NCBI GenBank assembly: GCA_022424955.1
Contig: JAKMGK010000060.1
Span: forward strand, 1 to 44,115
Direction of reading: 5' to 3'
Origin: Flavobacteriaceae bacterium
GTDB lineage: Bacteria; Bacteroidota; Bacteroidia; Flavobacteriales; Flavobacteriaceae
DNA: 44,115 nucleotides
Made by a program: the position numbers and the translations under genes. The stretch's first letter is position 1. Each line of letters begins with the position of its first letter. Below are positions 10,928 through 44,115 of the stretch, one piece after another. The notes below the pieces were generated by a model. It saw only the letters and a list, made by a program, of their open reading frames with translations, was not told the origin of the DNA and searched no databases.

Positions 10928-11476
10928 ATGAAAAACACGCGTGCCGCATTACGATATGCAAAAGCAGCCCTAAATCTTTCTTTAGAACAAAAGAAAGAAG
11001 AAGCTGTTGTAAAAGATATGCAAGAAATTGTTGCCGTGTTCGAGGCAAATAAAGAGCTGTCGGTTTTTTTAGAAAATCCTGTTGTGGCAAACCAAGCAAA
11101 ACAAGACGCCTTAGTAAACGTGTTTTCTGCCTTGCAGCCTCTCAGCAATCAGCTTATTGCCCTTTTAGCAAACAATAACCGTATTGATTTGCTTGCTCAA
11201 GTTGCTACGGCATATTTGTCTTTATTAAAAAAACATCAAGGTAAAGAAACCGCGGTTGTCACAACAGCTGTTGCTTTAACCCCTGATTTAGAAAAAGTAA
11301 TCTTAGCTAAAGCAAAAGAGATGTCTTCTGCTCACATTAGCCTAGAAAACAAAATTGATCCATCCATTACGGGAGGATTTATCCTTCGAATTGGCGATTT
11401 GCAATACAACGCAAGTGTTGCCCATCAATTAGATCAATTGAAAAGAGAATTGACACAAACGAATTATAGCGCATAA
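10928..11476 (+). CDS. atpH: F0F1 ATP synthase subunit delta
   Basis: RAALRYAKAALNLS start; IDPSITGGFILRIGDLQYNASV C-terminal motif. Confidence 0.93.
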   Translation: MKNTRAALRYAKAALNLSLEQKKEEAVVKDMQEIVAVFEANKELSVFLENPVVANQAKQDALVNVFSALQPLSNQLIALLANNNRIDLLAQVATAYLSLLKKHQGKETAVVTTAVALTPDLEKVILAKAKEMSSAHISLENKIDPSITGGFILRIGDLQYNASVAHQLDQLKRELTQTNYSA

Positions 11477-42178: not shown

Positions 42179-42654
42179 AATAGTGTTTTGTGGGAGGGGT
42201 CTACCCCTCCACTTATGCAAAGGGGTGAAGGTAGGAATTATGTTTTACTTATGGAAAGAAATCAGAGAAGGCAATCTTTATTAGAGTAAAATATCTTCTT
42301 AAAAAATCGTTCTAACTTGAGATTTTTTTAATTTGATATACCGATAATTTAGTTAAGTTTTCTTAGTGGTCTTATCACAAATTAAAGCTCCAAAATTCTC
42401 CCATTATTATTGACTCATAAACAAGAGTGGGGTTTTTAATGAATGTTTTCTGTAGTGGTTTAGAGATGTAAAATAGTGAATAACCCAACCGCTGTTGGCT
42501 TCAAATATTTTTGCAGGCTTGCCCACAAATGAAATCAACCAGAAACCGCTGCTATGATTGGCCTAAGGCACAATTCACGATGGAGTAAAATGGGGTGCTT
42601 TGTAGGGGCATAAAGGGGGATAGAGGGGTGTAAAGAATTGTTATGTTATTCATT

Positions 42655-42698
42655 CTCTGTATATTGTAGGTAATGTTAACCATAAATCAATTAAAATG
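42655..42698 (+). promoter_or_regulatory. Module leader copy A: promoter-like CTCTGTATATTG plus TTAACCATAAATCAATTAAAATG
   Basis: 23-nt TTAACCATAAATCAATTAAAATG (42676-42698) is identical to copy B; TTG at 42638-42640 lies 19 nt upstream of TATATTG. Confidence 0.75.
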
Positions 42699-43382
42699 AG
42701 AAAACTAATTTTATTAGTAACATTAATTTGTAGTGTTACTCTATCAGCACAAACAATGGCTTTTACTGCAATAGAGGTGAAAGTTAAGCCCTACACTCAA
42801 GACAATATTGCTGAAGCTTTTGACAAGGTATTTGAAGATGTAAAAATGAATCAAGGAGGAGTTGTATTAGAAAGGTTTTGGAATGGACGAACTAAGGGTA
42901 TGACACACAGAATTGTGTTTATGAGAACTTTAGGTGTAGATCTTGTTGACGAAGGTTCAATTAGTCCAGATAAAAATGAAGCTTTTTGGGCAAAAATGAA
43001 TAATTATATAGATGAATGGGGGTCAAGTTATTCGGGCAGAATACTAAGCTGGCAAGAAGGAGACACTGAAAAAAATCCAACAGTGCATATTTGGGATATC
43101 AAAGCTCAAGATCAAAATCAGTTTAAAAAAGGTCATGATAACATTGTTAAATCATTTAAAAAAGATTTTGAAGGAAGAGTGGTAGGATTCGGAACCTATG
43201 ACATAGGAAGACCAAATGGAGCAACACACTGGGTTGTAGTAACTGGAAAGGATAGAAATGATCATCTAATGCTTTACGACAAACTTGAAAAGTCTAGTAA
43301 ATTTACACAACTAATCAAAGAAAGGGGCGCAGCAGAAGACGTTAGAGATTATGAAGTAGAAATCTTGAGAAGAAAACAATAA
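42696..43382 (+). CDS. Secreted 228 aa protein of unknown function with apparent internal duplication
   Basis: Sec signal MRKLILLVTLICSVTLSAQ; two repeats sharing GxVVxxxxxxxGxxxGxTHxxV spacing. Confidence 0.7.
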   Translation: MRKLILLVTLICSVTLSAQTMAFTAIEVKVKPYTQDNIAEAFDKVFEDVKMNQGGVVLERFWNGRTKGMTHRIVFMRTLGVDLVDEGSISPDKNEAFWAKMNNYIDEWGSSYSGRILSWQEGDTEKNPTVHIWDIKAQDQNQFKKGHDNIVKSFKKDFEGRVVGFGTYDIGRPNGATHWVVVTGKDRNDHLMLYDKLEKSSKFTQLIKERGAAEDVRDYEVEILRRKQ

Positions 43383-43392
43383 TTTTTTATTT

Positions 43393-43414
43393 CCCTCCCA
43401 TTCAGAGGTTTTTT
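43393..43414 (+). terminator. Weaker intrinsic terminator (4-bp core stem) homologous to 44046-44067
   Basis: CCTC...GAGG with T-tract; same loop CATTC. Confidence 0.5.
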
Positions 43415-43472
43415 CTTATACTCACATCCTCTGTATTTTAGAAGTATTATTAACCATAAATCAATTAAAATG
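43393..43472 (+). repeat. Intergenic spacer module copy B (terminator + promoter + leader)
   Basis: Positions 43393-43462 align without gaps to 44046-44115, 59 of 70 identical by eye; ends in the 23-nt leader 43450-43472. Confidence 0.85.
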
Positions 43473-44021
43473 AAGAAATTATTATTATCACTTTTTGTTA
43501 TAAGCTTAGTTAGTTGTCAAAACCCTAAAGACCAAAAATCTGAAGAATCACCAACCGAAAAGGCAATTGGTTCTGCTCTAATGGATGGTACATCGAAGAT
43601 GACCTCAATAATTCCTGGAGAAGTTTCGAATCAAACCTTATGGTTAGATTATATTCAAGCGCACAATGATAGAGACCTGGATAAAATTGCTGAAATCAAT
43701 GCAGAAGATTGGGAAGGGTATACTGCTGATGGTAGTGTTGTTAAAGGTAACTCCTCACACATAGAAATACTTGATAATTGGTTTAAAACAGCATCTCCTA
43801 AATGGGAAGTAAAATGGATGATTGCTAATGCAGCGAAAAATAAAGATGGAGTGATTGAACAATGGCTTACAACGGGCAACGACTATACTGATGTTGATCC
43901 TGATGGAAATCCTATTTTTGAACATAATGTACACGACATCTTATTTGTCAATGGAAAGATTAAAAAGATAAATGTTTATAAGAGAGCTAAAGCAGAAGAG
44001 TCTTCGGATTTTTCTTATTAG
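43470..44021 (+). CDS. Lipoprotein with SnoaL/NTF2-like domain
   Basis: Lipobox LVSCQ; LDYIQAHNDRDLDKIAEINAEDWEGYTADGSVVKG...HNVHDILFVNGKIKKINVYKR. Confidence 0.75.
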   Translation: MKKLLLSLFVISLVSCQNPKDQKSEESPTEKAIGSALMDGTSKMTSIIPGEVSNQTLWLDYIQAHNDRDLDKIAEINAEDWEGYTADGSVVKGNSSHIEILDNWFKTASPKWEVKWMIANAAKNKDGVIEQWLTTGNDYTDVDPDGNPIFEHNVHDILFVNGKIKKINVYKRAKAEESSDFSY

Positions 44022-44045
44022 AAAATAATATTCGAATTCTAACTA

Positions 44046-44067
44046 CCCTCCCATTCGGAGGGTTTTT
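44046..44067 (+). terminator. Intrinsic terminator
   Basis: CCCTCC-CATTC-GGAGGG followed by TTTTT. Confidence 0.75.
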
Positions 44068-44115
44068 CTTTTACTCCCATTTTATGTATCTTAATAGTAT
44101 TAATAACCATAAATC
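44046..44115 (+). repeat. Intergenic spacer module copy C (truncated by window end)
   Basis: Gap-free 70-nt match to copy B, including CCCTCCCATTC(A/G)GAGG and AACCATAAATC. Confidence 0.85.

Follow-up and report, generated by a model that had tools for sequence, protein, structure and literature searches.

Results

We conclude, with a probability of roughly two-thirds, that the end of the window (the whole stretch of 44,115 nucleotides analyzed here, i.e., the entire contig C97 of a 1.8-Mb, 114-contig Flavobacteriaceae MAG, with the contig end at 44115) is an island of the tRNA-targeting integrative-element type whose cargo consists of interchangeable promoter-leader-gene-terminator cassettes, most likely joined by homologous recombination in the spacer. 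By comparison of sequences among genomes, we show that the array is modular, that this anatomy recurs across genera, that one-gene units are shared at high identity, that cargo is exchanged at the ATG behind a constant HUH-promoter-leader, and that an HUH gene lies beside tRNA ends.

A Modular Array at the End of the Contig

The island and its modules comprise the following features (window coordinates):

42191-42260, no strand: left boundary of the island, where synteny with G315 (83% DNA identity from 36778) ends
42430-42484, + strand: remnant of post-HUH sequence as in C83 (match to C83); the HUH gene is absent from the window
42485-42626, + strand: G-rich 145-bp repeat (GRICH), ending in GGGGGATAGAGGGG; several arrays have it at their edges
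42650-42675, + strand: module 1 promoter-like block, around TTCTCTGTATATTGTAGGTAATG (alignment; anchored consensus of 64 sites)
42676-42698, + strand: module 1 leader, overlapping the ATG
42696-43382, + strand: ORF1, 228-aa secreted protein whose family has leader-preceded members in other genomes too
43393-43417, + strand: module 1 terminator (CCCTCCCATTCAGAGGTTTTTTCTT)
43425-43449, + strand: module 2 promoter-like block (alignment; consensus of 64 sites)
43450-43472, + strand: module 2 leader
43470-44021, + strand: ORF2, 183-aa NTF2/SnoaL-like lipoprotein, from the largest cargo cluster (30 proteins)
44046-44070, + strand: module 2 terminator
44078-44101, + strand: module 3 promoter-like block
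44102-44115, + strand: module 3 leader, truncated by the contig end

The 23-nt leader TTAACCATAAATCAATTAAAATG is present in two exact copies (42676-42698 and 43450-43472), as the original prediction had it, and the third leader that it placed at the window edge is there in part (AATAACCATAAATC), cut off by the contig end at 44115. Spacers 43393-43462 and 44046-44115 are identical at 59 of 70 positions without a gap, which reproduces the reported match, and the runner-up among 70-nt matches within the window, on both strands, reaches 35-36. ORF1 and ORF2, whose products had been called unrelated, share no similarity and belong to different cargo families. A signal peptide in ORF1 and a lipobox in ORF2 were recognized by eye; ORF2 matches SnoaL_2 weakly (E = 5.7e-4, under the Pfam cut-off). 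ORF1 gave no convincing match to PDB sequences, and a low-confidence model (pLDDT 55.6) suggests a fold resembling a tandem dimeric alpha/beta-barrel (NIPSNAP/ABM-like). The terminator claimed for both spacers forms a strong hairpin in copy B (−12 kcal/mol, z −3.4) but a weak one in copy A (−3.8 kcal/mol, z −1.8), and the spacer lies between ORF1 and ORF2 and again after ORF2. ORF1 itself is preceded by the G-rich repeat (42485-42626) instead of a terminator spacer.

Elsewhere in the same genome, exact leaders are found on contigs C83 (two) and C100 and near-exact ones on C39 and C108; those on C83, C97, C100, and C39 sit close to contig ends, as expected for variable or repeated DNA. The order on C83 is tRNA-Pro, tRNA-Arg, a 126-aa ORF (the HUH gene), the 145-bp G-rich repeat, a leader-gene unit, a spacer, a second leader-gene unit, a terminator, and the repeat again. 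Positions 42430-42718 of the window match C83 955-1241 at 75.5% over 290 bp, the HUH stop codon of C83 being at 895. On the window contig, no HUH gene, integrase, or tRNA adjoins the array, and no tyrosine integrase was seen beside the arrays of C83, C97, and C100; the membership of the window array in the element type described below thus rests on the 290 bp over which its flank is homologous to C83. Although HUH gene and tRNA are not on the contig, the window island would once have been such an element.

On the left flank, the relative G315 carries a 91%-identical fabH-like gene, but the DNA beyond it bears an HxlR-type gene, tRNA-Ala, and a further mobile element and is unlike that of the window, which disposes of the idea that the array genes are fixed in synteny. 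Since synteny with G315 stops at 42191, the window island is absent from the corresponding site of this relative. As a bracket for the far side, the G315 HxlR gene has only a 42% homologue, on another contig. A different mobile element occupies the G315 site syntenic to the window edge (L165, 6468-11235): by eye, a Rep-like ORF of 435 aa and a long ORF of BspA-like repeats lie behind tRNA-Ala.

The Promoter-Leader Recurs across Genera in Front of Different Genes

Among 400 genomes of the family, 18 (12 genera) carry the 28-nt promoter-leader with ≤3 mismatches, compared with 0/400 for the reversed pattern; the carriers have genomes of about 1.2-2.2 Mb, and exact 28-nt copies occur in four genera. 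The 21-nt leader, again with ≤3 mismatches, gave 45 matches in 19 genomes of the genus and four for the reversed pattern. Loci in other genera hold the same cargo families again, in part beside tRNAs. These loci, with the further spacer and leader copies on C83, C100, and C39, bear out the predicted cassette array, in which the spacer is constant and the genes differ.

The 64 leader genes, together with 14 added neighbors, fall into 22 clusters (phmmer), among them 30 NTF2/SnoaL-like proteins, 15 members of the ORF1 family, and seven small membrane proteins; the remaining cargo, in small clusters or as singletons, includes alpha/beta hydrolase, SCO4226-like, DUF1059, and DUF3303 proteins. The notion that the modules serve secreted proteins holds for ORF1 and ORF2 but not for the alpha/beta hydrolase, small membrane, and DUF1059/SCO4226-like cargo elsewhere. 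Spacers recur at other loci with unrelated genes on either side, and in the clearest array, L202 of a relative, 12 ORFs in 8.2 kb have nine leader sites. That many cargo genes come from two large families (30 and 15 members) would be in line with tandem duplication of paralogous genes that retained their upstream regions, the outcome that had been named as contrary to a cassette array; however, ORF1 and ORF2 are unrelated and come from different cargo families, and neighboring modules of L202 likewise lie in different clusters, which leaves this explanation extremely improbable.

Units Are Shared between Genomes One Gene at a Time

The alignment of HUH gene, promoter, and leader is continuous across C100, L175, L182, L184, L192, and L196 and ends no more than ~10 nt past the ATG, beyond which the genes are unrelated. 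Over 546 bp of HUH-promoter-leader sequence, C100 has 90.8% identity to PL36323bin_8, which is of another genus, and the two diverge just past the ATG; for comparison, a housekeeping PBP gene is 69% identical between the C100 genome and G345, taken to be PL36323bin_8. The tRNA-Ser(tga)/ribBA site holds three different cargo sets in L177, L184, and L116. Units common to different genomes extend in most cases from a point 20-98 nt ahead of the ATG to one 0-230 nt past the stop codon, and include those shared by C83 and G316 (1184 bp at 93.5%, beginning 43 nt ahead of the ATG and taking in the repeat), by G315 and G316 (97.4% over 351 bp), and by PACB and G138 (85% over 809 bp); the housekeeping PBP gene of G000 and G316 has 75% DNA identity. 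At an identity threshold of 70%, single-gene islands make up 95% of leader-gene pairs and 46% of other ORFs; with the threshold at 80%, the shares are 88% for leader genes and 47% for other ORFs. These figures come from non-independent pairs and a control set that includes unverified ORFs. This comparative evidence, in which movement itself was not observed, indicates that the units are probably mobile one by one between genomes. It should be noted that misassembly at repeats is possible in many of these loci, which come from MAGs; the records AG-892-D16, AG-319-F16, and AG-901-E05, whose names are of single-cell style, share the anatomy, which argues against an assembly artefact.

The same data bear on the possibility that the promoter-leader marks a regulon, i.e., that one regulator or translation feature conserves it in front of many secreted-protein genes, which would cluster at tRNA hot spots as acquired genes generally do. 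The leader is indeed conserved beyond the needs of a promoter, and leader genes also occur outside recognizable islands (L110 and L114; neither there nor at L113 was a tRNA, HUH gene, or integrase found nearby in the stretch read). However, one-gene units of high identity with sharp ends in promoter and terminator would need recombination as well, as would cargo exchange at the ATG behind a constant HUH-promoter-leader, and we regard a regulon as an unlikely explanation for the arrays.

A Small HUH Gene Lies behind tRNA 3′ Ends

The HUH gene, the tRNA 3′ ends and fragments, the tyrosine integrases, and the G-rich repeat are context that the original prediction had missed. The 126-aa ORF of C83 weakly matches PF23343 (REP_ORF2-G2P), below the Pfam cut-off, and 11 divergent homologues have an invariant HxH (H65, H67) and an invariant Y105 and K108 (YxxK). 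In a Foldseek search with the predicted structure (AF2, pLDDT 91.6), the best match was 2x3g (SIRV1 ORF119; E = 4e-5), followed by pMV158 RepB and CRESS Reps; the sequence match to 2x3g has an E value of 0.0013. From this motif and the Rep-like fold of the model, the ~122-aa ORF is predicted to be an HUH (Rep-type) endonuclease. A scan of 84,980 species returned 33 loci, every one of them from a MAG or single cell of Flavobacteriaceae/Bacteroidetes. There were no relatives in viral contigs or plasmid collections and a single weak Microviridae match among phages, and on these grounds a phage or plasmid origin was set aside.

Three further observations concern the gene itself. At 19 loci (L175-L207), a block, CCTTAATCCCTGCTATTGCATAAACTTAA, is conserved in the ~60 bp that precede the HUH start, often behind a short hairpin, GGCAT-AGC-ATGCC (by eye); this block may serve as nick site, operator, or promoter. 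HUH genes of a second subfamily, at about 30% identity (L102 4480-5129 and L119 5284-5933), lie beside a short ORF with GRKKGTPNRLTKE, whose place is taken by a DUF5681 protein at the related locus L091. Finally, C100 (L010) has a decayed tandem unit: at 10989-11191 lies another HUH gene, which is broken, and behind it come a promoter-leader and a further lipoprotein gene.

The upstream side was usable at 27 HUH loci, and 16 of these carry an intact same-strand tRNA (His, Met, Ser of three kinds, Asn, or Ala) 204-300 bp before the HUH gene, where 0.8% is expected by chance. Several other loci have a tRNA 3′ fragment beside the gene instead: 25 nt of tRNA-Met in C100, 35 nt of tRNA-Ala in L183, and, by eye, a tRNA-Ser piece in L182. 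In both L183 and L182, the fragment has an integrase on its other side. In L101, a tRNA-Met piece precedes the HUH gene (by eye) and tRNA-Arg follows the G-rich repeat. Tyrosine integrases of the Phage_int_SAM_5/Arm-DNA-bind types are present in L094, L096, L097, L099, L182, and L183, and in more distant relatives the HUH gene sits within plain integrase elements. Among these, L097 is complete, with integrase, HUH gene, and a 35-nt stretch of tRNA-Ala directly repeated at its two ends. Most HUH-tRNA loci have no matching attR within 8 kb, and complete elements of the close HUH subfamily are thus undelimited. A leader lies within 400 bp of the HUH gene in only 11 of 35 HUH loci; it starts 120-124 nt past the end of the HUH match in C100, L175, L182, L184, L192, and L196.

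Behind the tRNA 3′ ends upstream of HUH genes (e.g., in L178, L175, and L189), there are paired short direct repeats that differ with the tRNA (such as GTTGCC-N-GTTGCC, TTGCCC-N-TTGCCC, or TGTCCC-N-TGTCCC) and look like integrase core or arm sites. L097 (4293-12967; G202, tRNA-Ala) also contains large ATPase-like and restriction-like ORFs (by eye), which are possibly anti-phage cargo.

The G-Rich Repeat Marks the Edges of Arrays but Not the Inner Spacers

The 145-bp repeat with its abrupt G-rich end is found at 42485-42626 of the window, twice in L009 (1008-1152 and 2844-2965), and in L102 (7760-7879), with more copies in L106 (7555-7674), L107 (7612-7717), and L108 (7889-7972). In G307, the G-rich repeat lies ~170 bp inside the 3′ ends of tRNA-Arg and tRNA-His, which again places one end of an element at a tRNA 3′ end. 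The repeat has no match in Rfam, and a known RNA element was set aside on that basis.

The repeat and the HUH gene invite the alternative of a site-specific or HUH-driven cassette system, in which the HUH protein or an integrase would insert modules at one of two places, the promoter-leader or the G-rich repeat, in the manner of an integron or an IS91/ISCR-type element. Many arrays have the HUH gene directly upstream of the first module, and the C83 array is flanked by G-rich direct repeats (1030-1152 and 2844-2965; 94%) with abrupt ends. Yet the repeat is missing from the inner spacers (by alignment), no conserved target motif follows its G-rich end (by eye), nothing attC-like was noticed, and the length of the spacer suffices for homologous recombination; such a system is, in our estimation, quite unlikely. 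We give similarly little credence to an undescribed integron analogue built on single-strand endonuclease chemistry, in which the HUH protein or a partner integrase would insert or exchange units at the constant joint and the G-rich repeat would be the array terminus, so that modules of one expressible gene each would be put together behind tRNA genes of ocean flavobacteria. Separately, one-ended, IS91/ISCR-like transposition from the G-rich repeat was considered and rejected: its ends are abrupt, yet there is no common target motif by eye.

Discussion

The reading that we favor, tRNA-targeting islands loaded with interchangeable cassettes, would work as follows. Each cassette holds a promoter-like block of ~25 nt, then a leader of ~20 nt, a single gene, and its intrinsic terminator, and would give rise to its own transcript; with its own promoter, leader, and terminator, the gene would be expressible alone wherever it landed. 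The islands would belong to a type of small integrative element that pelagic Flavobacteriaceae carry behind tRNA 3′ ends, with the ~122-aa HUH gene at the tRNA-proximal end, followed by ~120 bp and then by the promoter-leader and first cargo gene. Integration and tandem accretion would show in the tyrosine integrases and in the duplicated 3′ fragments of tRNAs; integrase and tRNA ends could account for the entry and stacking of whole islands, and the placement of the HUH gene suggests that its product may replicate or mobilize the excised element. Modules would be swapped mainly via homologous recombination in the 45-95-bp spacer. Near-identical DNA of 45-95 bp is sufficient for homologous recombination, and because spacer and promoter-leader are near-identical over this length, homologous recombination is the simplest joint.

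Integron gene cassettes are serial single-gene units in which constant joints separate variable genes. The arrays described here resemble them in these respects but differ in that each unit has its own promoter and leader and that the integrases seen are of the phage type. The alignment of the inner spacers revealed terminator, promoter, and leader only, and integron attC arrays were set aside, nothing attC-like having been noticed there.

The elements also have points in common with the tRNA-associated elements and flexible islands of marine bacteria, namely insertion behind a tRNA, variable cargo, and tyrosine integrases at part of the loci. A tRNA-Arg variable region has been reported for MS024-2A-like Flavobacteriaceae of the same clade (PMC4164334), and tycheposons (Hackl 2023, as cited in PMC12324425) are tRNA-associated elements with cargo in other ocean bacteria. 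Here, in contrast, the cargo is organized as one-gene cassettes with near-identical promoter-leader and terminator, and a small HUH gene is tRNA-proximal. Rep-encoding integrative and mobilizable elements (reviewed in PMC5704250) likewise combine an integrase, a Rep/HUH-type protein, and a tRNA attachment site, of which L097 is a complete example here, whereas in the present elements no conjugation or mobilization gene was identified and the HUH protein is only ~122 aa. With the HUH Reps of the PF23343 REP_ORF2-G2P/SIRV1 ORF119 type, our protein shares the fold and the HUH and tyrosine motifs, but the sequence match is weak and the gene is chromosomal rather than viral. Charybdis elements (PMC12324425), which have archaeal hosts and are without replication genes, were set aside. 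In the open-licence literature, we found no description of promoter-leader-delimited cassettes or of the present HUH-tRNA association.

The recurrence of one-gene units in varied combinations among marine relatives suggests an interchangeable kit of add-on genes. If this is true, ocean bacteria with small genomes would share a pool of ready-to-express single genes under a common promoter-leader, such that a newly acquired gene would work at once, providing streamlined genomes with a simple route of gene gain. The minimal HUH protein at tRNA islands would be directly testable, and the promoter-leader would be a sequence tag for the flexible gene pool of marine flavobacteria, a pool mainly of small NTF2-like and dimeric alpha/beta-barrel-like proteins.
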